This document shows, piece after piece, positions 13,152 through 37,240 of a stretch of DNA of 42,366 bases (the first letter of the stretch is position 1; the number at the start of each line of letters is the position of its first letter). Origin of the DNA: a virus. The notes beneath the pieces are model-generated. The model did not search any database. It worked only from the letters and a program-made list of their open reading frames with translations, and was not told the DNA's origin. The position numbers and the translations under genes were made by a program. The stretch covers positions 1-42,366 of IMG/VR virus record IMGVR_UViG_3300031227_000119. One strand, given 5' to 3'.

Positions 13152-13835
13152 TTATTTTGTACCTGCCATAAATTCCCTGTGAGTTCGTTCGATCTCACTT
13201 GTGCGATTGAAGATGAACGTGTTATACTGGCAGGCTATGTTTATGCCGTAGATATTGATGTCAACCGGAGAAAAACCTATGGAAGCGAACAGCAAGAGAA
13301 TTTCTTCAATGGAATATGCCTCGTCAACTATCTGTAAGCGCTCTTTTAGATGCACCTGCGCTTGTTTCTGATAGCGCCCGTCCGGGATGTTAAGGACAAT
13401 GAATGTACGATCTCCAGAACAGCGATCAATTGCCAGCATAGCGTTATTTATTTCTTCTCTCTGGATATGTTCAAATACATCTACCAAAACAACGCCATCG
13501 AATATATATGGTAGGCCGCGATTGTCACGATATTTAACTTCTGTAATATCGCCAACTCGATATTTAACGTTCTTGTGTGCTGATTCCTTTTTCGCAAACT
13601 CAATTAGCTTCGGTGATATATCAACAGCCGTAACCTTCGCTCCCAATTGCCCCATGAACTGCGATGTGATTCCGGTGCCACAACCCAAGTCAAGTATGCT
13701 CATGCCTGCCTTAACTATCTGTGCAAGCTTGACCTTAATGCGGATGTGCCTGTCATTTGCTCTTGTGTGGTCACGGGAAAAATACGGGAGGCAAGCGTCA
13801 TAAAAGGCGGCGATTTCAGATTGTCTATCAGTCAT
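13152..13835 (-). CDS. SAM-dependent methyltransferase (class I)
   Basis: 227 residues from the ATG at 13835, preferred to an upstream in-frame start because this ATG overlaps the preceding stop by 8 bases. Motif I is SILDLGCGTGITSQF, followed by VTAVDISPKLIEFA (acidic motif II), YRVGDITEV (motif III) and FDGVVLVDVFEHI (motif IV), a Methyltransf_11/25-like Rossmann fold. Neighbours in the same operon are a GT4 glycosyltransferase and a WlbA-like dehydrogenase, so a sugar or lipid-linked glycan substrate is likely, for instance O-methylation of a phage- or host-surface glycan. The substrate is inferred only. Confidence 0.85.
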   Translation of the reverse strand: MTDRQSEIAAFYDACLPYFSRDHTRANDRHIRIKVKLAQIVKAGMSILDLGCGTGITSQFMGQLGAKVTAVDISPKLIEFAKKESAHKNVKYRVGDITEVKYRDNRGLPYIFDGVVLVDVFEHIQREEINNAMLAIDRCSGDRTFIVLNIPDGRYQKQAQVHLKERLQIVDEAYSIEEILLLFASIGFSPVDINIYGINIACQYNTFIFNRTSEIERTHREFMAGTK

Positions 13836-14079
13836 TATTACCCATCCTGTCGAATAGTTTTTCCCTGGCATCTTGTCTATTTGCGATATCACGCCAGAAT
13901 TTACGCCGCTCACTTCTCTTGTACCCTGCCTTTGCCATCATACCATCGAGAGACTTCAGGACATACACGCCCCGACTCACCTTGCGCTTGAAATACCACT
14001 TGAGAATAGCATCCCGTATTTTGAGTTTCAGGAGTTTTTCTTTGAACCATATCCACAGGATAAAACGGGGGATTTTCAT
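13828..14079 (-). CDS. Small basic protein of the glycan cassette
   Basis: 83 residues, very basic: MKIPRFILWIWFKEKLLKLK then repeated Arg/Lys, with an amphipathic N-terminal helix, no clear signal peptide. It overlaps both the GT4 gene (4 bases) and the methyltransferase (8 bases), so it is coupled to both. It may be a membrane-surface or nucleic-acid binding helper, but no family is recognised. Confidence 0.6.
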   Translation of the reverse strand: MKIPRFILWIWFKEKLLKLKIRDAILKWYFKRKVSRGVYVLKSLDGMMAKAGYKRSERRKFWRDIANRQDAREKLFDRMGNND

Positions 14080-15038
14080 TTTTTCCCCTTCGTTCCTGCC
14101 TTATCCACAAGCGCTTTCAGTTGTTTTATCTGGTTTTCTATCGTCCAGCCGCGGTCGATAACGTAGTTGATATATTCAGATTTATGTGTCTTTTTGGGGT
14201 CAGAAATCAGATTAACAGCCTCGTTTACGGTATTATAAATCAAGTCTGGTGGATATAGTCCCTTCGCTCCGTTAAAGTTGTGTATGACCGGCTGAAGCCC
14301 TCTCGCCATGCCCTCGATAACATTCACTGGATGCCCCTCATGGATGCTCGTTGACAGGATAATGCCCTTGCCTTCCCAGAAAGCGTTCATGTCCGTAACA
14401 TGCCCGTAATAGATGATGTTGTCCTCGATCCCCATTTCTCTTGCCATGTGTTTCATATAGATTTCAAGGTGTTCCTCCTGAAACGCTCCTGCGACATGAA
14501 GGCGATATGCTGGGTTTATCTTGACCAGTTCCGCCATGATCTGAAGAGATGCCGGGTTGCCCTTGCGGTTGTTCAGCGAACATACATAAGCTATTTCGTG
14601 AGGGTTGAGGACCGTATTCTGCCCAATTTTGTCAAGATTTACTCCGTTCGGGACTATCTTTGTTAAAACTTTATTTTCGATGTCCGGTATTTTTGATTTC
14701 ACTATTTTCCTGATGTGCGGCGCAACAAACACCAGATAATCGACAAAAGACCAGTCAATACGCCCTGGCATCGGCGTTAATGATTCATAACTGTGCAGGC
14801 GGACAACACACCCCTTCTTTTTGAGGTCGTATATCTGGGTCGCCAAGATAGCAACCTCGTTAGCCCACTCGATAAAGACTTTATCAGCCCACTTGATTGC
14901 TGCAATGATCTCTTGTTGAGTTGAAATGTAGTATCGGCGCACCTGATACTCCGGGAACTTCTCAAACTCTCTTATGATCGGCTCAATGAATGTTTCAAGC
15001 CCCTTCTGACACAGAAACGCTAATTTCTTCTTCTTCAC
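14076..15038 (-). CDS. GT4 (GT-B fold) glycosyltransferase
   Basis: 320 residues. The C-terminal Rossmann domain carries VPNGVNLDKI, the AYVCSLNNRKGN linker, IIYYGHVTDMNAFWEGKGI and SIHEGHPVNVIEGMARG, where the E-x7-E pair binds the nucleotide sugar. These are GT4 family features (retaining GT-B enzymes). The N-terminal half is also Rossmann-like. It sits in an operon with a WlbA-like dehydrogenase (4-base overlap) and a methyltransferase. The 29 bases at 14520..14548 recur exactly at 16203..16231. Acceptor unknown, probably a surface glycan or virion protein. Confidence 0.88.
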   Translation of the reverse strand: MKKKKLAFLCQKGLETFIEPIIREFEKFPEYQVRRYYISTQQEIIAAIKWADKVFIEWANEVAILATQIYDLKKKGCVVRLHSYESLTPMPGRIDWSFVDYLVFVAPHIRKIVKSKIPDIENKVLTKIVPNGVNLDKIGQNTVLNPHEIAYVCSLNNRKGNPASLQIMAELVKINPAYRLHVAGAFQEEHLEIYMKHMAREMGIEDNIIYYGHVTDMNAFWEGKGIILSTSIHEGHPVNVIEGMARGLQPVIHNFNGAKGLYPPDLIYNTVNEAVNLISDPKKTHKSEYINYVIDRGWTIENQIKQLKALVDKAGTKGKK

Positions 15039-15877
15039 TGGATCCCCCTTAGTTCTTGTATCTCTTCACACAACCGAATAGCCGGGAGTGCGTCCGCGAT
15101 TCCAAACCCACCGCCTGCAATCATATCACGATAGACTGCCTCGTGAAGATTCTCGAAACCATTCAGCAGGTCGATGTTTTTCCCGTTCACTTTGAATATT
15201 TTCTCTGGTTTCCCCTGTTCTATTGAGAGTGTGTATGTTACAGGTGTATCATTGTAGAATAACTGACCGCTTATTGATTGCCCGTCGTGATAATCTACAA
15301 TGTTCGTTACGGGTTCCCCGAGCAGCATCAGAATGAGGTCGAAAAAGTGTATCCCGATATTCATTGCCAACCCACCACTTAGTTCATCGTTGCCCTTCCA
15401 TGACTTTCCGTACCAGTTCCCCCGTAGCGTGCAGTATGAAACATTTATGCTGGTTATTTTCTCCTTATTGACAAGAAGGTTGACTATATCCGGGTGATAC
15501 CTGAGTTGCATCACTGTTCGTACCTTGCGCCCTGTGCTGGTAGATAGTGCTAAGAGTATATTAGCCTCTGATACGGACATTACAATCGGCTTTTCTATCA
15601 ATACATCATACCCATACGATAATGCATTGTATGCGAGTCTGTAATGTGTATTGTTCGGTGTGCAGATCACCACATAATCAGCGTAAATCTTCTCAAATAC
15701 CTGTGTAAACTTTTTAAAATACTCCGCATCAGGAAAATACTTGTCGATCACCCCCACAGAATCATTCGGATCAACGATAGCTACTATTTCCCCACCTGTT
15801 GCTTGAATTGCCCTCATGTGCCGCTCTGCGATGTACCCTGCGGATCCTACAAGGATAACACGGTATGAATTACTCAT
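15035..15877 (-). CDS. Gfo/Idh/MocA oxidoreductase, WlbA/WbpB-like
   Basis: 280 residues from the ATG at 15877 (GGGGAGAGCA upstream). The N-terminal NAD-binding domain has VILVGSAGYIAERHMRAI and VICTPNNTHYRLAYNAL, with the EKP signature (VLIEKPIVMS). The C-terminal domain has GGLAMNIGIHFFDLI, characteristic of WlbA/WbpB-like UDP-GlcNAcA 3-dehydrogenases and relatives. Such enzymes make the 3-keto sugar used for 2,3-diamino uronic acids in O-antigens. It overlaps the GT4 gene by 4 bases. The reading frame is also continuous upstream with the broken HTH gene (15878..16051). Confidence 0.82.
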   Translation of the reverse strand: MSNSYRVILVGSAGYIAERHMRAIQATGGEIVAIVDPNDSVGVIDKYFPDAEYFKKFTQVFEKIYADYVVICTPNNTHYRLAYNALSYGYDVLIEKPIVMSVSEANILLALSTSTGRKVRTVMQLRYHPDIVNLLVNKEKITSINVSYCTLRGNWYGKSWKGNDELSGGLAMNIGIHFFDLILMLLGEPVTNIVDYHDGQSISGQLFYNDTPVTYTLSIEQGKPEKIFKVNGKNIDLLNGFENLHEAVYRDMIAGGGFGIADALPAIRLCEEIQELRGIQ

Positions 15878-16051
15878 TGCTCTCCCCTTCTGGTGGAGCA
15901 TTAGCAGCAGCTTCTTGGTTGAGTGGTGAGGGGTTTTCCCCTCTCGTGTCTATGAATAATAGACCGAGAGGGAAATTCCTAACAGGTCGCAGAACCCCTT
16001 CTTCGTCAAACCAAGTTTGTTTCTGATCTCTTCAATTTCTGCGTGTGTCAT
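15878..16051 (-). pseudogene. Xre-type HTH regulator, nonsense-interrupted
   Basis: The ATG at 16051 (AAGGA 7 bases upstream) opens 33 residues, an Xre-like helix-turn-helix start with EEIRNKLGLTKKGFCDLLGI then SLSVYYS, ending at a TAG (15950-15952). Past the TAG the same frame continues with TREGKTPHHSTKKLLLML, exactly the second half of an HTH_XRE domain, where a Trp is usual at the stop position. TGG to TAG is a single G-to-A change. The frame stays open into the dehydrogenase gene (to 15035). It may be a genuine pseudogene, a readthrough site, or a base-call error. Confidence 0.65.
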
Positions 16052-23015: not shown

Positions 23016-23480
23016 TTATTTTCCTATCATTTCACCAACTGCCAGACACCACAATGGCAACAGTGGGAACAAAACCCTCGCCCATAAATATGATCCCTGG
23101 ATGACAAACAGCAACAGCGACACTACCGTGATGATTAGAACCCACCAGAACAGCCGTGTCCTACGTCTCAGCAGACTTAAAGCAACTAATGGTAACAATA
23201 GCCACCTATAAGAAATAAACGCTACAATAGCTTCAGGGATACCTTCCGTAAGTATCCTCATTCTCGATGCGTGATCTTGTGTTTGTGGGTCTGCCAGCAT
23301 GGATGATAGCACTGGCATATATAACAGTCCGGCAAGAGCAATACCGATAGAAAGCCAGAGAGCCGACCGGTACTCACCATAAACCAGACAGACAACTATC
23401 AGCCCCACAACGTATGCCCCGTTACTGGGGATTGTGTAAATAAAGAGTGCGGTTAGGATGGTTATGAGGAATGGTTTCAT
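23016..23480 (-). CDS. GT-C glycosyltransferase, C-terminal third
   Basis: 154 residues from the ATG at 23480, which overlaps the methyltransferase stop by ATGA. It has about four membrane helices: MKPFLITILTALFIYTIPSN, ALWLSIGIALAGLLYMPVLS, LLLPLVALSLL and WWVLIITVVSLLLFVIQGS, ending YLWARVLFPLLPLWCLAVGE. This order fits the later part of GT39/PMT-like GT-C enzymes (a YT loop, a YMP helix and an ARVLFPLLP end). The first and middle parts are separate upstream ORFs (24855..25172 and 24468..24608). It may form a split enzyme or be decayed. No catalytic residue lies in this piece. Confidence 0.55.
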   Translation of the reverse strand: MKPFLITILTALFIYTIPSNGAYVVGLIVVCLVYGEYRSALWLSIGIALAGLLYMPVLSSMLADPQTQDHASRMRILTEGIPEAIVAFISYRWLLLPLVALSLLRRRTRLFWWVLIITVVSLLLFVIQGSYLWARVLFPLLPLWCLAVGEMIGK

Positions 23481-24475
23481 AGCGCAAGCCTCGTTTGTGC
23501 AAGTTCGGCATCGATACGCTTCTGTCCAGCGATGCAATATTTCTCTTCCTGTTCCATACATATCCAGTTTCTATTTGTCTTAATGCAAGCGATTGCAGTC
23601 GTCATGCTACCTGCACAGTTGTCAAGCACGGTGTTATTTTCGTTGGTATAGGTGCGAATGAGATACTCGAACAGGGCAACTGGCTTTTGCGTGGGATGGA
23701 TACCTCTTTCTGTATTTATTCTTAAAATTGTTTTTGGGAATCTATCTCCATTATTTATGGTTATATTGTTTTCTAATCTATTTAAATGTGGCATATTCCC
23801 TTTTCCTGTTTTCGCTATATATGGTTTACCTTTTTCTTTTTGTAAATTGATTTTTTTATCTTCTTTGATATATTCCTTTTGTAAATCAATATATTCTATA
23901 AATCCAAACCATTCTCTTATATTGAATACTTCCTCAATTTTCCTATACGTTTTTAGAGTGCATAAACTCCATTGTGGACCAAATGGTTCAAAAAAATGTT
24001 GACTACTTCCATCTCCAATACTTTCAATCATCTTTTTTCTTGTATATTTTATGTGTTCTCTTAATTTAAGAGCATATGCCCTTAATTCTTTAAATGTCGT
24101 CAAGTCTTTTGTTATCTCTTTACTGCCTTTTTGAAAAATCAATATATTTTCGTGAGATTTCATCGGTTGTTTATTAGCCAATAATGGGTTACTCCCCATT
24201 TCCTTTTCCCATATCCACTCATATCTAAACATTTCTTGATTACTCATAACAAGTTTGCTTGTGAATGGTTGACTTGCCGTTAGCACTATTGCCCCATTAT
24301 CCTTGATTATCCGCTTGTACTGTTTCCAAAGCGGTTCAAAAGGAATGATAGTATCCCATTTGCAGGCGGTAGTTCCGTAGGGCAGATCGCACAAGATCAT
24401 ATCGATAGACTTGTCTGCAATCTTTGGCATCAGTTCTAAGCAGTCGCCACAGTACACTTTATTTATCTCAAGCAT
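23477..24475 (-). CDS. DNA N4/N6 (beta-class) methyltransferase
   Basis: 332 residues. The catalytic motif IV is ILCDLPYGTTACKW (DLPY in place of the usual DPPY). The SAM-binding part comes last: GIHPTQKPVALFEYLIRTYT then VLDNCAGSMTTAIACIKTNR and WICMEQEEKY. The order IV, target recognition, X, I is the beta class. The middle (about 110-245) is Lys-rich and coded by AT-rich DNA (23720-24170), a likely exchanged target-recognition segment. It likely methylates phage DNA against host restriction. No cognate nuclease is seen. Its start overlaps the GT-C middle fragment (8 bases), its stop the C-terminal fragment. Confidence 0.88.
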   Translation of the reverse strand: MLEINKVYCGDCLELMPKIADKSIDMILCDLPYGTTACKWDTIIPFEPLWKQYKRIIKDNGAIVLTASQPFTSKLVMSNQEMFRYEWIWEKEMGSNPLLANKQPMKSHENILIFQKGSKEITKDLTTFKELRAYALKLREHIKYTRKKMIESIGDGSSQHFFEPFGPQWSLCTLKTYRKIEEVFNIREWFGFIEYIDLQKEYIKEDKKINLQKEKGKPYIAKTGKGNMPHLNRLENNITINNGDRFPKTILRINTERGIHPTQKPVALFEYLIRTYTNENNTVLDNCAGSMTTAIACIKTNRNWICMEQEEKYCIAGQKRIDAELAQTRLAL

Positions 24476-24608
24476 CCTTCCTCCAAACTAAATAAAACAG
24501 TGCCACCATCAAAAGCATCGACAACCCGTAACCTCGAATGCCTACCGAATAATAATAGAAGGGTAGTGTTGTCGCAAGAAGTAGGGGAGCGAGATAATAT
24601 TTCATCAT
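24468..24608 (-). CDS. GT-C glycosyltransferase, middle fragment
   Basis: 46 residues, two membrane helices: MMKYYLAPLLLATTLPFYYY, then SVGIRGYGLSMLLMVALFYL and a VWRKDA end. The PFYYYSVGIRGY segment corresponds to the conserved SPFLIYYSREARPY-like loop in the centre of GT39-family GT-C proteins. The start is the first of two ATGs, overlapping the lipoprotein stop; the stop overlaps the methyltransferase ATG by 8 bases. It lies in register between the N-terminal piece and the C-terminal piece, separated from each by an inserted gene. Confidence 0.5.
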   Translation of the reverse strand: MMKYYLAPLLLATTLPFYYYSVGIRGYGLSMLLMVALFYLVWRKDA

Positions 24609-24850
24609 CTGACACTGTCGATTTTAACAAACATTTGCATACTTGTAGTAGGCTGTGAATCACCCTGCGCAATATTGTGTTTTGCATTATATATGATCTG
24701 AGCCATCTGTTCCTCTGTAAGAGTCCCACTCTGTATAGGAGGATTACAGATAACATCCTGCTTCCCATAAACCCTATCTACTTGCTGTTCTTTACAGGCA
24801 ACCAAACAAAACAGTATAAACATAGCGAATAAAAATCGTTTAACTTTCAT
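24605..24850 (-). CDS. Small lipoprotein
   Basis: 81 residues from the ATG at 24850 (AAGGA 9 bases upstream). The signal peptide is MKVKRFLFAMFILFCLVAC with an LVAC lipobox, so Cys-19 would be lipidated. The mature part is short and polar (KEQQVDRVYGKQDVICNPP then GTLTEEQMAQIIYNAKHN) with no known domain. A phage lipoprotein of this size may change the host envelope, for instance as superinfection exclusion; this is inference. It separates the N-terminal and middle pieces of the split GT-C gene. Confidence 0.62.
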   Translation of the reverse strand: MKVKRFLFAMFILFCLVACKEQQVDRVYGKQDVICNPPIQSGTLTEEQMAQIIYNAKHNIAQGDSQPTTSMQMFVKIDSVR

Positions 24851-24854
24851 GTCT

Positions 24855-25172
24855 TTAATCCTTTCTGAATTTCCATACAAGCCATAATGTTCCTATTGGA
24901 AAGATCAGTTGCGGTATTCTTATTATCCATGGGTTCCTCAATAAGGTTTCAATATCATGTACACCAAGTACTCGAAGGTATATATTATTTATAAGGCTAT
25001 ATATGACATGGTTATTCAGGTTCACATACTTCGTAACAACATCGACCACTGGACAGAACAGGAAGTTATCCATTGTGTGGAGTTCGTCATAGTAGAAATC
25101 CCTGTTGACCAACCTCATGGTGCAGAGAAGGAAACCTGTGAGGATGAGAAGGAACCATTTATTTTGTGTCAT
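24855..25172 (-). CDS. GT-C glycosyltransferase, N-terminal third
   Basis: 105 residues from the ATG at 25172. A first helix (WFLLILTGFLLCTMRLV) is followed by NRDFYYDELHTMDNFLF, where the D-E pair fits the catalytic loop of GT39/PMT-type GT-C enzymes (WYDEAFT in many members). NNHVIYSLINNIYLRVLG corresponds to the HPPLYYLLLHLWLRLFG region and IIRIPQLIFPIGTLWLVWKF to the RLPSALFG helix. It stops just after this third helix. It overlaps the upstream gene by 14 bases and ends 4 bases before the lipoprotein ATG. Confidence 0.6.
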   Translation of the reverse strand: MTQNKWFLLILTGFLLCTMRLVNRDFYYDELHTMDNFLFCPVVDVVTKYVNLNNHVIYSLINNIYLRVLGVHDIETLLRNPWIIRIPQLIFPIGTLWLVWKFRKD

Positions 25173-25506
25173 AAATTCCCCAATACCCACCAAACGGATC
25201 AATACGCTTCCCTCCACCATAACCAGTCAAAACCCACCGCGACCGACCGCATCTCAAACCCAGAAACTTCCCGTAGACCATAAGTGCCGCCTTGTCAACC
25301 ACAAGCGGAACAATTGGGGCATTATGAGTCGCAACCCACCAGGTCAAGACCTCTCTCGGATTGTATAATTCGTAAAAATATGAATATAATAAATTGACCC
25401 TACCGCTTGTGAACGTTGCGATCTCGATGTCTTTCCGCAAGACTCTCTGTGTGTTCCATAAGCCAAAAGCAAAGCTGATGAGCAGTATGGGGACTATGAG
25501 CTTCAT
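25159..25506 (-). CDS. Membrane-anchored fragment, possible C-terminal domain of a GT-C enzyme
   Basis: 115 residues: an N-terminal helix (MKLIVPILLISFAFGLW), then a soluble part with an EVLTWWVATHNAPIVPLVVD segment and a Gly-rich end. The VATHNAPIVPLVVDKAAL stretch could match the extracytoplasmic end of AftB/2-O-mannosyl-type GT-C proteins, with the related N-terminal part 5' at 25727..26428 and an RtcB fragment between them. This is weak. The start has AAGGGGTAAAAAGAA upstream. It could also be an unrelated secreted protein. Confidence 0.4.
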   Translation of the reverse strand: MKLIVPILLISFAFGLWNTQRVLRKDIEIATFTSGRVNLLYSYFYELYNPREVLTWWVATHNAPIVPLVVDKAALMVYGKFLGLRCGRSRWVLTGYGGGKRIDPFGGYWGIYDTK

Positions 25507-25512
25507 TTCTTT

Positions 25513-25770
25513 TTACCCCTTTATAACAGCAAGTGGTTTTAATTCAACGATAGGCGTAACCAAATCCACCTGTTCTTCCATAACTACAGCTATGTCTTTA
25601 TATGCTCCACTAGCCTCGTCCAAGTCAGATGTATTGCGAACTGAGTGAATAATACCCATGCTATTGAGTTTATTTTGCTCATCATCAAGGTTTAACACTC
25701 TATATGCTTCTTTTCTCCCCATGCGCCTACCAGCCCCGTGGGAACACGACTGAAAACTCTCTGGAGAGTT
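25513..25770 (-). pseudogene. rtcB: RtcB (RNA ligase) C-terminal fragment
   Basis: The frame opens right after a TGA at 25771-25773 and reads NSPESFQSCSHGAGRRMGRK, then EAYRVLNLDDEQNKLNS, an EASGAYKDIAVVMEEQVDLV segment and a PLAVIKG end. The SHGAGR motif, the AYKDI...MEEQ...LV segment and the KG end are the last quarter of RtcB RNA ligases, with the conserved His of HGAGR in the active site. No N-terminal part is seen nearby. The first codons overlap the end of the GT-C N-terminal ORF in another frame, so this is a fusion scar between two genes. Confidence 0.72.
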
Positions 25771-26428
25771 TCATCGTTAATGAGTTCGGTAGCGGAGAAC
25801 CGTAATAGAATGTTTTGAATTGGTAAAATACCATCATCACCGTGACCAGCGTCCAAATATTAACAGCGTCTTTCCTATTCACATACGCCCACATCGGGAC
25901 CGCTATTAACCCCTCCATCCTCGTAAGCACCAATAGGCACATTAGAATTAATGATACCCTATCGTTGCGCTCGACCAGTGTGTAATAAACGAAAGCGCAC
26001 AGCATAGCCGTGAAAAAGGTCGTCCCCATACCTTGAGTAGCCCAACCGGAAACAAGGCCGTGTAGCGATGCGACAAGGGCCATGAAGCCAGTAAGCCAGC
26101 CTTCCCCAGTTAGCTTTGCGACACTTAGGTAAACGAAGAATGCAACAAAGAACAGGGATAGCAGATTGATAACGCCGGAGACCATTTCGAGGTTGTGAAA
26201 GCCGACCTTATACGCACCTGCCAGGATAACAGTGAAGAGGAATGAACTGGCGGCATCCACACGCTCACCGAGGTTGTATGCCAGCTCTCCATGTTCGGCA
26301 AGGTTAACGGCATAGCGCATTGTGATATATGAGTCATCGTAGAAGTTATGGTAGACCGCTCCGGTGTTCCAGTAGATTGCAACCGTGACTATGACTGCTA
26401 TGATTCCGATTATGATTGCTTTTCTCAT
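25727..26428 (-). pseudogene. GT-C glycosyltransferase, N-terminal half, truncated
   Basis: 233 residues with about six membrane helices. MRKAIIIGIIAVIVTVAIYW leads to FYDDSYITMRYAVNLAEHGE then GERVDAASSF, the D-D catalytic loop and following segment of AftB-like GT-C enzymes. LTRMEGLIAVP and FYYGSPLPNSLTMKL are further family segments. Full-length relatives have about 500 residues. Here homology ends at TMKL; the last residues LSREFSVVFPRGW come from reading the RtcB fragment in another frame. It overlaps the C5 methyltransferase by 4 bases. It may be inactive or be complemented by 25159..25506. Confidence 0.62.
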
Positions 26429-29590: not shown

Positions 29591-29811
29591 TTCCCTTCCT
29601 CCTTTAGTTTTCTCAAGCAGATTTCTTTCCCATCAACAACTCCTATCGCGGGAGAGTGTGCTTCTTCATGCGGACAGGATTCTTCATTGCACGGGAACGC
29701 ACCACCAACTTCAGGAATGGTTATTGCCCCAATAGTTATTTTTCCGCAGGTTCCGAAGCAAAACTTAGTAATCAATTCCTGCTGTACAGATGGTATTACT
29801 CCGAATATCAT
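29587..29811 (-). CDS. Cysteine-containing small protein
   Basis: 74 residues: MIFGVIPSVQQELITKFCFG, then CGKITIGAITIPEVGGAFPC and ESCPHEEAHS. Four Cys and two or three His could bind metal. It overlaps the zinc-ribbon gene and the DnaC-like gene by 4 bases each. No family recognised. Confidence 0.55.
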   Translation of the reverse strand: MIFGVIPSVQQELITKFCFGTCGKITIGAITIPEVGGAFPCNEESCPHEEAHSPAIGVVDGKEICLRKLKEEGK

Positions 29812-30620
29812 TCCACTTTCCTCCTGTAATCACTAAAACAGAACTTCCATTCCGGCGTTGATATCCGGCTTGCGATCCGTGCGTCCATATTGTCCTGTAT
29901 CTTCCCCAGGGTGAGGTTAGATGTGATGATCGTGGGCTTGTTGTTCGAATACCGTGAGTTGATGATTTCCCCTAATATCATCACCGCATATTCGGTGGGC
30001 TTCTCGGTTCCCAGGTCGTCCAACACGAGGAATTTGTAGTATTCATATTTCCATATTATCTCCCCCACTGTTTCATCGCTCCGCTGGAACGTGTCCTGAA
30101 GCTCAAGCAGTAGTTCTGCGGACCTCTTAAAATGAACCGGGCTTGTGCCGTTCACCATGACCTCCCTGAGTATCCCAACAGCAAGATGCGTTTTCCCTGT
30201 CCCGACCTTCCCTGAGAATAAGACAACGCCCCTGGGGTCTTTTGCATACTTCTTGGCGCTGTTTTTGAAGTCAGCGGTCTTGTGTGTCACTGTGTTCTGC
30301 CGAGGCTTGAAATTGTCGATTGTAGCGTCCCTGAGTATCTCTGGTACTCCAGCAAGTTGCATATCCAAGTCGCAAACGGTACGTATTCTGCTCTGTGTTT
30401 TTCTTCTCTTTTCTTCGCATTCGATTCCGCTACACCACCACCGGAATTTAAGCCCGTGGTCGTAACCTTCACTGACACTTGCAGATTCTTCCATTGTCCG
30501 CCCACATAGACATACCGGTGTATCGTCTTTATCGAGGTAGTGTTCGCATTTGTGGGTATATGGGGTTTCACCTTTCTCGTCGATAATCACGCCCTGCTTG
30601 ATGTGGATGTCATTGTTCAT
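29808..30620 (-). CDS. DnaC-like helicase loader ATPase
   Basis: 270 residues. The N-terminal part has Cys pairs (HKCEHYLDKDDTPVCLCG then WWCSGIECEEK) for a zinc site; Walker A is VLFSGKVGTGKTHLAVGIL; Walker B is FLVLDDLGTEKP; sensor 1 is PTIITSNLTL; the arginine finger lies in MDARIASRIS. This is the IstB/DnaC-type AAA+ family. It loads the host replicative helicase at the phage origin, working with the DnaD-like protein encoded two genes upstream. Confidence 0.9.
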   Translation of the reverse strand: MNNDIHIKQGVIIDEKGETPYTHKCEHYLDKDDTPVCLCGRTMEESASVSEGYDHGLKFRWWCSGIECEEKRRKTQSRIRTVCDLDMQLAGVPEILRDATIDNFKPRQNTVTHKTADFKNSAKKYAKDPRGVVLFSGKVGTGKTHLAVGILREVMVNGTSPVHFKRSAELLLELQDTFQRSDETVGEIIWKYEYYKFLVLDDLGTEKPTEYAVMILGEIINSRYSNNKPTIITSNLTLGKIQDNMDARIASRISTPEWKFCFSDYRRKVE

Positions 30621-31042
30621 TGTCCTCCCTCCCCGATTTCTCTACGAGCCTGTTTAATTGCCTCCTTGACCGTTAATACAGCAATGAGCCTGATTCCTTC
30701 AAATCTTTCCCATACATCTTTGTCCATTATATCAAATGCCCTCTTCCTCACCTCAAGCTCTTTCGCCGCCTCCATCGCAAGGGATTCTGCGGTATGTTCA
30801 CCACTTGTAGGCAAACCATCCACAGTTGGGTATTCTAAAGCATCAGAGAGAATCTTCCAAACGGTATACTCTTGTTTAACGCAGATGTCTTTGAGTCTCT
30901 TACTCTCTTCCGCTTGCTCAAGGTAAGCTGTGTGTACAATAGATACGCTTTCTTGCCCTTTAATACTTTCTTTTCTGCATGGATATTTCATATTATAGTT
31001 AATATCGTCTATCGCTTCCATGATCTTCTCTTTCTCAATCAT
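30617..31042 (-). CDS. Helical hypothetical protein of the replication operon
   Basis: 141 residues from the ATG at 31042 (overlapping the DnaD-like stop by 8 bases, with GAGGGAGAAG upstream). It is highly helical and charged: MIEKEKIMEAIDDINYN, then AYLEQAEESKRLKDICVK and AESLAMEAAKELEVRKRAFD. It lies between the initiator and the helicase loader and probably acts in replication; no family recognised. Confidence 0.55.
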   Translation of the reverse strand: MIEKEKIMEAIDDINYNMKYPCRKESIKGQESVSIVHTAYLEQAEESKRLKDICVKQEYTVWKILSDALEYPTVDGLPTSGEHTAESLAMEAAKELEVRKRAFDIMDKDVWERFEGIRLIAVLTVKEAIKQARREIGEGGQ

Positions 31043-31871
31043 CTTCTCCCTCAACTTCGTCTCCTGTGAATGCTTCTCCAAAATTATCACCATGCCCGTA
31101 TTCGGAACGCTCTGATTTTTTAGGCTTTGTGAACCCTTCCGGGCTTTCGTTTAGATACGTGTCAAACCTATCACGGTTGAATAGCGTCTCTGGTCTGTAT
31201 AGGTTCGGTTGCTCCTGGAAATGTGGATCACATAGCTTCGTTGTGATGATTTGCGAAAACTGCTCTTTTAACCTCCCTTCGTTCAGCCTGTCCATGATTG
31301 TGTTAATGCCAACTGTGTAAATGTCTAAGAAATTCTTACCGCAGCGCTCGTTAATCTCATGGAGTATTTCCAGAGCAATTGTTTTGTTTTTCTGATATTC
31401 AGGGTGATGATATTCGTTCATTCCCGCCCTCGGTTTTTGGGCTGGGGGGTTAGGGGGGGTATTTATCTTTTCTCCTTCTCCTTCTCCTTCTATAGCGGTA
31501 GGTGCTACAGAGACCCTCTGTAGGTCTTTGCTCTTTTTTCTGCCAGTCCAATTAGATGCAAGGTTAATAAACTTCGGTACTTGTATTAATATGGACGCTC
31601 CATCATCACGCCAGAGAAAACGGGGTTCCGATATTTCTTTTGAAAAGAAGTGCAATAGAAGTTCAACTTTAGTCCATCTCTTACGCAACTTCCGTTGTAG
31701 AAAAGCCTTACTAATCCTCATATATCCATCACCATCCAAGTGGTTAAATTCCTGCCCGTAGATGTCAAGAATGATGAAAAAACCACTATACCCGAAATCA
31801 CCAAACTTATCCATTGCGTCTGAAATATCAGGGTCATTATGTGAGCCAGTCATGTGCTTGTACCACTCCAT
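31035..31871 (-). CDS. DnaD-like replication initiator
   Basis: 278 residues. The N-terminal winged-helix-like part (about 1-110) starts MEWYKHMTGSHNDPDISDAM and has GYSGFFIILDIYGQEFNH. A polar linker with EGEGEGEKINTPPNPPAQKP follows. The C-terminal domain (about 165-245) has IALEILHEINERCGKNF and LYRPETLFNRDRFDTYLNES, matching the conserved phage C-terminal (Phg_2220_C) region of replication proteins. It likely binds origin DNA and recruits the DnaC-like loader. No iteron cluster is obvious within the gene. It is preceded by a structured leader and promoter 32041..32069. Confidence 0.75.
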   Translation of the reverse strand: MEWYKHMTGSHNDPDISDAMDKFGDFGYSGFFIILDIYGQEFNHLDGDGYMRISKAFLQRKLRKRWTKVELLLHFFSKEISEPRFLWRDDGASILIQVPKFINLASNWTGRKKSKDLQRVSVAPTAIEGEGEGEKINTPPNPPAQKPRAGMNEYHHPEYQKNKTIALEILHEINERCGKNFLDIYTVGINTIMDRLNEGRLKEQFSQIITTKLCDPHFQEQPNLYRPETLFNRDRFDTYLNESPEGFTKPKKSERSEYGHGDNFGEAFTGDEVEGEDD

Positions 31872-31890
31872 ATTTTTGCCTTTTCAACAT

Positions 31891-32035
31891 AAAAAATAGG
31901 GCGAGAGTATTTCAGCAACCGCATAACTGGTTGTCGCGTCCTCACGGAATCGCGAATACTCTCGCCCAAAGCTCATGTAATAAAAAAATCGCTACCGGGC
32001 GATTACCGGTCATGCTTTTCTGAATTCTGTTACTT
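31891..32035 (-). ncRNA. Structured leader RNA / possible attenuator or MITE-like element
   Basis: Between promoter 32041..32069 and the DnaD-like ATG. First structure: minus-strand AATCGC (31999-32004) can pair with GCGATT (31987-31992), followed by a T-run; this competes with ACCGG (32006-32010) pairing with CCGGT (31994-31998), a terminator/anti-terminator pattern. Second structure: GGGCGAGAGTATT (31955-31967) with AATACTCTCGCCC (31899-31911) is a perfect 13-bp stem closing a 43-base loop that itself can form small hairpins; the stem is followed by TATTTTTT. A 23-codon ORF starts at 32013 within it. The perfect terminal stem also fits a dispersed palindromic element. Confidence 0.6.
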
Positions 32036-32040
32036 CTATA

Positions 32041-32069
32041 ACTATAATACACCAGTCTTTATTTGTCAA
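32041..32069 (-). promoter_or_regulatory. Sigma70-type promoter of the replication genes
   Basis: Minus strand TTGACA (32064-32069), 17-base spacer, TATAGT (32041-32046), a close match to consensus. Transcription would start at about 32034, at the beginning of the structured leader. Confidence 0.8.
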
Positions 32070-32081
32070 GTGATTTTTCCC

Positions 32082-32402
32082 CTATATCCCCATTCTCGGT
32101 TTACGTGCCTTTGCGACCTTCTTCTGCATCTCAATTTTGCCGAGTGAGTTGTACTTGCTCTGTAGCTGCCTTACCTGTGCTTCAAGGGCTTCGATGCGCT
32201 CCTGAACCGTTGGCTCTACAAATATCGAATCGGGTGTAGACAGAGCAATCGTTTCAACCTCTTCCTTGTCTGCCGGCACGACAACCTCAACGACATCCGG
32301 AGCGATCCGATCCCCCACACAATCAGCAAACAAAGCCGCTCCTGCCACAAAAACAACCGTAACGACTATTACAACTGCAGCCTCAAATATGCCTGCCTTC
32401 AT
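32082..32402 (-). CDS. Membrane-anchored coiled-coil protein
   Basis: 106 residues. An N-terminal membrane helix (EAAVVIVVTVVFVAGAALFA) is followed by an acidic linker and a coiled coil with VQERIEALEAQVRQLQSKY. The C-terminus is basic (KVAKARKPRMGI). It is the last gene of the early operon. The layout could suit a membrane-associated regulator or inner-membrane anchor; no family recognised. It overlaps the preceding gene by ATGA. Confidence 0.6.
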   Translation of the reverse strand: MKAGIFEAAVVIVVTVVFVAGAALFADCVGDRIAPDVVEVVVPADKEEVETIALSTPDSIFVEPTVQERIEALEAQVRQLQSKYNSLGKIEMQKKVAKARKPRMGI

Positions 32403-32668
32403 CTTGATGTCTCCATTTCTTCTCTGTCATATTTCGACAGGCTGGTATGAGCGATATTGTCCTGTTTGTCCCTCGCCGTTTTGTATGCTTTTTTCAATGT
32501 CATGCCCTGCGATCGATAATGAAGCGTTTGCAGGAACAGGGCGAGGTTACAATGCGAGCAAGTGTTGTCTCGTCCCAGGCATTTCTCCCCGATAAGGTTT
32601 GCAGCCTTACCTTGGGGCGTTGTTGCGTGAGGGTCTATACAGGGTTTATTTAGGCTGGTTATGCTCAT
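32399..32668 (-). CDS. Small cysteine-containing protein
   Basis: 89 residues: GEKCLGRDNTCSHCNLALFL with a Cys cluster, then a helical end. Overlaps its neighbours by 4 bases on both sides. A zinc-binding helical domain is possible. No family recognised. Confidence 0.5.
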   Translation of the reverse strand: MSITSLNKPCIDPHATTPQGKAANLIGEKCLGRDNTCSHCNLALFLQTLHYRSQGMTLKKAYKTARDKQDNIAHTSLSKYDREEMETSR

Positions 32669-33159
32669 AAGGTAGGCTCTCCATTCTTCCTATCATAGAT
32701 TGCTTCATACTCTTTTTTGGACTTTGGCATCTCATAGCTTCTTACTGTAACGCTCCACCGTGGTTTTTCATCATAGAATTTGTTGATTTCGCAACATACT
32801 ATCTGTGAATCATCGTGCCAGTACCCTGCCTGGGTCATGCAATCCAGCAGATTTTTGACATAATTGTCAGCGTCGGGCTTTCCTGTTGGTCGTATATAAC
32901 GGCCCATTGCGGCCTCCCAAAACCACGTAGGCTTAGACACTGGTATCGGCAGGTAAACATCAATATAAATCATCACACAGCCATCCAGCGGAACCTTTGG
33001 GGCGTACTGGCATATTATCTGCATTAGTTGCTCTTCATTCCGCCGTTGTTTCGGATCCTTATATGTCATTGTAAATGACTTTCCGCCCTTCGTGATTGCC
33101 CGGGACCTTGCCCGCATCTGCGGTGTTGGTATTATCGGGATGGTGAAGTTGATTTCCAT
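32665..33159 (-). CDS. rusA: RusA-like Holliday junction resolvase
   Basis: 164 residues. The N-terminus is the beta strand INFTIPIIPTPQMRAR, as in RusA; the catalytic acidic cluster is in TGKPDADNYVKNLLDCMTQA followed by GYWHDDSQIVCCEINKFYDE, with the D-x-D-N and D-D pairs expected for metal binding. It resolves recombination or replication junctions before packaging. In the early operon with the recombination-associated protein 33407..34435. Confidence 0.85.
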   Translation of the reverse strand: MEINFTIPIIPTPQMRARSRAITKGGKSFTMTYKDPKQRRNEEQLMQIICQYAPKVPLDGCVMIYIDVYLPIPVSKPTWFWEAAMGRYIRPTGKPDADNYVKNLLDCMTQAGYWHDDSQIVCCEINKFYDEKPRWSVTVRSYEMPKSKKEYEAIYDRKNGEPTL

Positions 33160-37211: not shown

Positions 37212-37240
37212 AATAAAACCAATTCATTTAGTTATGTCAA
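37212..37240 (-). promoter_or_regulatory. Sigma70-type early promoter
   Basis: Minus strand TTGACA (37235-37240), 17-base spacer, TTTATT (37212-37217). Located between the strong terminator at 37261..37295 and the first early gene. The same -35 and -10 elements occur at 22980..23008. Confidence 0.75.

Follow-up and report, generated by a model that had tools for sequence, protein, structure and literature searches.

A candidate transcription attenuator in the leader of a phage replication operon

The sequence analysed here, an IMG/VR virus record of 42,366 bases (IMGVR_UViG_3300031227_000119), is referred to throughout as the window; its minus strand carries nearly all genes. A structured leader occupies the 210 nt that separate a small gene, ending at 32082, from a replication initiator gene starting at 31871, and we lean, with modest confidence, towards reading this leader as a two-state transcription attenuator, that is, a readthrough valve for the replication operon. 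Its elements, their order, their gene context, the exclusivity of its folds and a fold depth exceeding that of shuffled sequence are apparent from the sequence and from computation on it. Two deep, mutually exclusive folds, one of which is an apparent terminator, are the anatomy predicted for an attenuator. The sequence-only reading had offered an attenuator as one of three options; this option is now supported in part and is the best supported of the three, being strengthened by a competing antiterminator fold that was absent from that reading.

Promoter, leader and gene context

The transcript order on the minus strand is promoter, two small hairpins (AT and T1), a 13-bp stem (P1), the tail TATTTTTT, GAAAAGG and ATG (Table 1). 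The promoter boxes, TTGACA at 32069-32064 and TATAGT at 32046-32041 with a 17-nt spacer, form the top-scoring sigma70-type match in the whole window, and the near-consensus promoter noticed earlier was thus confirmed. We infer promoter activity at 32069-32041, with transcription predicted to start near 32034. Profile matches to a DnaD-like initiator and a DnaC-like helicase loader downstream likewise bear out the earlier placement of the leader before the replication genes. The P1 element ends 28 nt upstream of the initiator start codon, and a sigma70-type scan found no promoter within these 28 nt, so that transcription of the initiator must read through P1. About two thirds of the initiator gene's ribosome-binding site is paired in the computed fold of the full leader. 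Elsewhere in the window, methyltransferase-, glycosyltransferase- and membrane-protein-like genes, recognized by eye from translations only, lie at 13152-15901 and 23016-26428, in part amid the structural genes and in part between those for replication and packaging.

Table 1. Features of the leader and the replication operon in the window, and of a repeated leader element in related phages
Feature	Position	Strand	Basis
Sigma70-type promoter, TTGACA-17-TATAGT (activity predicted)	32041..32069	-	11/12 consensus
Predicted antiterminator fold	31911..32024	-	lowest-energy fold, prefixes tried 31944 to 31903
Possible leader peptide MTGNRPVAIFLLHELWARVFAIP*	31942..32013	-	open frame only, poor Shine-Dalgarno
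Hairpin AT (ACCGG/CCGGU), local, forms first, blocks T1	31994..32010	-	-5.7 kcal/mol
Weak terminator-like hairpin T1 (AAUCGC/GCGAUU) with U-run	31982..32004 (stem 32004-31987)	-	-5.3 kcal/mol
Terminator stem P1 (13 bp) enclosing P2 and P3	31899..31967	-	perfect inverted repeat
Hairpin P2, UCC-GUGA-GGA tip, inside P1	31954-31935	-	
Hairpin P3, inside P1	31933-31916	-	
U-rich tail TATTTTTT of terminator T2	31891..31898	-	sequence and terminator scan
Ribosome-binding site GAAAAGG of initiator gene	31879..31885	-	sequence
DnaD-like replication initiator gene	31035..31871	-	PF09524 Phg_2220_C E 1.2e-11, phrog_428 E 8e-10
DnaC-like helicase loader gene, same operon as initiator	29808..30620	-	phrog_50 E 1.3e-51
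Repeated leader element (related phages)	L033 8145-8228, 20192-20272; L114 10303-10220; L030 7785-7868, 18794-18868; L031 5169-5248		

Terminator stem and competing fold

The arms of P1, GGGCGAGAGTATT at 31967-31955 and AATACTCTCGCCC at 31911-31899, pair at 13 of 13 positions with 43 nt between them, and P1 is the sole inverted repeat of at least 10 nt with arms no more than 200 nt apart in the region 31000-33000. Together with P2 and P3 it forms a three-way junction of -36.3 kcal/mol (z -6.2), a stability equalled by none of 200 shuffles; the perfect stem with a three-way-junction-like fold that had been described from the letters is therefore real in the sequence and, unlike the small hairpins, beyond chance. 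As in an intrinsic terminator, the stem closes with CGCCC and is followed by UAUUUUUU. In a stem-plus-U-run scan of the sense strand over the whole window, P1 with its U-tail ranked first (-35.1, versus -18.5 and -18.2 for the next two); termination at T2 is a prediction from sequence. That the window's best promoter precedes its strongest sense-strand terminator-like stem argues for an attenuator. The runner-up in the scan (12606-12581) lies upstream of the capsid gene block; the third, a strong terminator at 37296-37269, is followed by TTGACA at 37240, and the segment 37296-37240 is likely an early operon boundary with a promoter.

The two small hairpins at 31987-32010 had been called mutually exclusive, and they are, because bases are common to both; a U-run directly follows the second, T1, and not AT. 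Taken alone, both hairpins are weak and no more than chance expects. Stepwise folding gave AT a probability of 0.94-1.0 in the nascent prefixes around T1, and since AT is dominant when T1 could form, polymerase probably passes T1.

The growing transcript was also folded prefix by prefix, the energies being model values at 37 °C. Once the transcript has grown to 31960, the 5' arm of P1 becomes paired with the T1/AT region. This fold gives way at 31950, where AT is lowest in energy, and is the minimum again at each prefix tried between 31944 and 31903. By 31911 it has become a large branched antiterminator structure of -41.4 kcal/mol, which reaches -41.9 kcal/mol at 31903 and persists up to the point where little of the 3' arm of P1 is left to be made; by comparison, the best prefix structures with AT enforced have only -30.9 to -34.6 kcal/mol. 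In this antiterminator fold, UUCAGAA (32024-32018) pairs with UU (31918-31917) and CUGAA (31915-31911), GCAUGAC (32015-32009) with GUUAUGC (31927-31921), and GGU (32007-32005) with ACC (31931-31929), while helix A joins UCGCCCGG-AGC (32002-31991) to GCUUUGGGCGA (31972-31962). P2 is retained within it, and T1, AT, P1 and P3 are all excluded. Once P1 has been made completely, the terminator fold wins (-45.1 to -46.3 kcal/mol), with a computed P1 probability of 1.0 at equilibrium in the full leader; a plain terminator would therefore suffice unless folding is kinetic.

When the 67-nt 5' leader was shuffled and the P1-P3 element kept, prefix folds as good arose in 22 of 5000 cases (antiterminator prefix z -3.98), and of 3000 real segments taken from the window, 14 equalled the pairing gain between leader and element. 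The shuffle outcome was unchanged for start sites between 32040 and 32026. The statistic, about 0.005, is not overwhelming, and the fold was found after looking. By these prefix foldings and shuffles, the leader has an antiterminator fold that is exclusive with the terminator and is formed earlier, as is expected of an attenuator.

Under the attenuator reading, polymerase would start near 32034, and the local AT hairpin would let it pass the weak T1. The antiterminator fold would then arise as the 5' part of the RNA pairs with P3 and the P1 5' arm, and polymerase would go on into the initiator and loader genes. Were a protein, a small RNA, a ribosome or an altered transcription speed to occupy or melt that 5' part, P1, P2 and P3 would form instead, and P1 with its U-tail would stop transcription at ~31891, leaving an RNA of ~144 nt. 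Which way the switch works, and what triggers it, are suppositions in this scheme.

Relatives and comparable leaders

A search of Rfam at gathering and at permissive thresholds returned no family match (0 matches in the window), in agreement with the earlier remark that no known riboswitch family was evident. The best sub-threshold match was the ribosomal protein L20 leader RF00558 (19.0 bits versus a threshold of 58.7), which has a GC-rich stem followed by a U-run; in contrast to that leader, the window has no L20 gene downstream, and its score is below the threshold.

Similar DNA was sought in 50,697 phage records and in the window's own record, and the leader element found only itself. In genomes, the P1 stem pattern gave 0 matches at 11 bp, and the 10-bp matches were rejected as copies, being Timonella palindromes, a REP-like repeat in a proteobacterial MAG, a coding stretch and other unrelated palindromes. 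The proposal of a dispersed palindromic element is thus not supported: there is one copy in the window and none in the phage records, and the genome stem matches are unrelated repeats or chance. Two of these repeats are of note in themselves. In Timonella senegalensis (L066-L091), a perfect ~60-bp palindrome, ATCGAGAGTATTCCTGAGCCCACTCTCGA..., is dispersed in more than 20 copies and is MITE- or REP-like; in the uncultured proteobacterium MAG (L085, 5595-5675), a 16-bp inverted repeat surrounds GGGACGCCGTGAATACGTCCC, a core present in many of the 28 matches there.

Neither in the phage records nor in the viral contigs searched did the leader or the replication genes beside it have a close relative. 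Searches of viral contigs with the initiator, loader and RecT-like genes gave no relatives, or one 31% match without the leader, and the single match to the P2 sequence there lay within a capsid-like gene and was attributed to chance. The terminase led to 38 related viral loci that have the structural module in common, with up to 72% identity; these are without the window's initiator, replication module or leader, and they include one 100% fragment lacking the leader region. A Spirochaete host was considered and rejected, as no terminase match was found in 198 genomes. The closest terminase among named phages is that of a Marinitoga phage, whose initiator leader was discarded as a counterpart, being without such a structure.

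Phages related to the window do have promoter-terminator-Shine-Dalgarno leaders directly ahead of genes. We observed in them a repeated leader element of the form (promoter)-AGAGNNCC-AGAGNGCC-hairpin-GGCNCU-U-run-Shine-Dalgarno-gene (Table 1). In L030 and L033, the arms match within the repeated copies, and between the two they differ by paired changes (AGAGCGCC/GGCGCU versus AGAGAGCC/GGCUCU); stem changes between phages are compensatory, and one leader can stand ahead of different genes, among them an MT-A70-like methyltransferase known from its DPPW motif only. The element has no match in Rfam and looks like a gene-cassette attenuator family. A strong intrinsic terminator also lies upstream of the scaffold/major capsid block, in the window (12606-12581) as well as in L029 (19824-19848), L030 (18809-18857) and L033 (20210-20253), and that of L033 follows a 12/12 promoter. 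Terminator-controlled leaders therefore seem normal in the lineage of the window phage, which supports the attenuator reading and at the same time makes it less exceptional. A 20-nt T1-like stretch after a promoter in L063 stands ahead of other genes and was set aside as common terminator sequence.

The pattern GCGAGAGTATT-N30..60-AATACTCTCGC was found in one viral contig, L004 (IMGVR_UViG_3300001533_000974). Its leader has identical 11-bp arms, GCGAGAGTATT and AATACTCTCGC, around two hairpins (z -5.9), just after TTGACA-17-TATAAT and ~87 nt upstream of a gene whose product is a primosomal/initiation protein (phrog_9327, E 7e-28). However, this initiator protein has no detectable similarity to that of the window, the phage is unrelated, and the interior and flanks of the stem are unlike the window's; there is no U-tail behind the stem either, so the L004 P1 is not a terminator. 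A 20-nt inverted repeat links the interior of the L004 stem to the downstream region, and as the leader is made, its P1 structure (-30.3) is computed to give way to a long hairpin (-49.9), so that there are again two exclusive deep folds. The pattern with 9-bp arms occurs at 20 loci in viral contigs, about the chance expectation, and by itself the stem match in L004 therefore lacks significance; extension by two bases should leave about one locus, and an estimate from the measured density of long inverted repeats gives a few tenths of an expected match at 11 bp. Among the loci found, that of L004 is the only one with a strong promoter on one side and an initiator gene on the other, and no replication gene was seen after the other loci with 9-bp arms. 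This context is suggestive, the GAGAGUAUU-stem leader being found between promoter and initiator in the window phage and L004 only. We nevertheless consider it unlikely that the two represent a new leader RNA family, in which a GCGAGAGUAUU-stemmed three-way junction, as one of two exclusive folds placed between promoter and initiator, would switch or time replication in unrelated phages in response to some host or phage signal. A 10-mer common to an L031 inverted repeat and the L004 interior was an after-the-fact observation and was dropped. In another viral contig, L009, two tandem three-way-junction-like palindromes, GAGAGAGTATT... and GAGAGCAGT..., lie at ~240-480, shortly before a gene start, and the inner hairpins of the first have repeated TTAACAGAAATGGGG loops.

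Alternative explanations and known systems

T2 is strong by itself, plain terminators 7-41 nt upstream of genes are numerous in the related phages and the Marinitoga phage, and a further one lies in the window at 12606-12581, ahead of the capsid block. The leader might accordingly contain an ordinary internal terminator that merely lowers readthrough from upstream early genes into the replication genes, the promoter adding some transcription and the alternative fold having no role. We regard this as somewhat unlikely: the competing fold surpasses 99.5% of shuffled leaders in depth and ties up precisely the P1 5' arm, and a plain terminator has no need of a branched 43-nt interior. The 210-nt gap is filled by a promoter, a compact structured RNA and a strong terminator, as would also suit a free-standing, trans-acting phage small RNA of ~144 nt ended by T2, with the downstream genes fed by leakage. 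A phage small RNA is possible as the terminated product, but as the function of the locus it is quite unlikely, given that no conserved sequence beyond the window marks a trans-acting RNA and that the operon would then be without a nearby promoter of its own.

The same 11-bp arms around a different interior, beside another initiator gene in L004, raise the question of a DNA-level element, an operator or a replication-origin inverted repeat beside the initiator gene whose RNA structure is incidental; arms conserved more than the interior would suit a DNA-binding dyad. Yet the offset from the promoter differs (about +5 in L004 versus +68 in the window), the other loci with 9-bp arms have no consistent context, and the U-tail and the antiterminator pairing would be left unexplained, which makes such an element very unlikely. 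Highly improbable, in our view, is a leader that senses a ligand or the ribosome, either as a riboswitch or by peptide attenuation through a 23-codon frame at 32013-31942. Although the branched interior with its GNRA-type tip is aptamer-like, and the frame spans T1, helix A and the 5' arm of P1 with its stop inside P2, Rfam gave no match, the Shine-Dalgarno sequence is poor and there is no run of one regulatory codon; a frame so short may well be chance.

The attenuator reading places the leader beside known systems. It resembles trp-, pyr-, mgtC-type and tandem attenuators (PMC3641672) in having a promoter, alternative leader folds and one intrinsic terminator directly before an operon, whereas the genes controlled here would be phage replication genes, the terminator stem is branched, and the leader has no demonstrated regulatory leader peptide, PyrR/TRAP site or metabolite. 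In the put RNA of HK022, a pair of neighbouring stem-loops binds polymerase, and the terminators affected lie further downstream (PMC9378689). With this and other phage antitermination leaders (PMC9378689), the window leader shares a structured RNA just past a phage promoter and terminators preceding early genes; in the window, however, the terminator is inside the structured leader. Most likely, the window leader is a new example of attenuator leaders, an established class.

Control of phage replication genes is usually ascribed to repressors or antitermination proteins. With a cis-acting RNA switch just upstream of the initiator gene, RNA folding alone would be enough for the phage to set or delay its replication, and the two folds make opposite predictions for a few point mutations. 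Should the connection with L004 hold, it would give the first hint that unrelated phages have a leader family in common.
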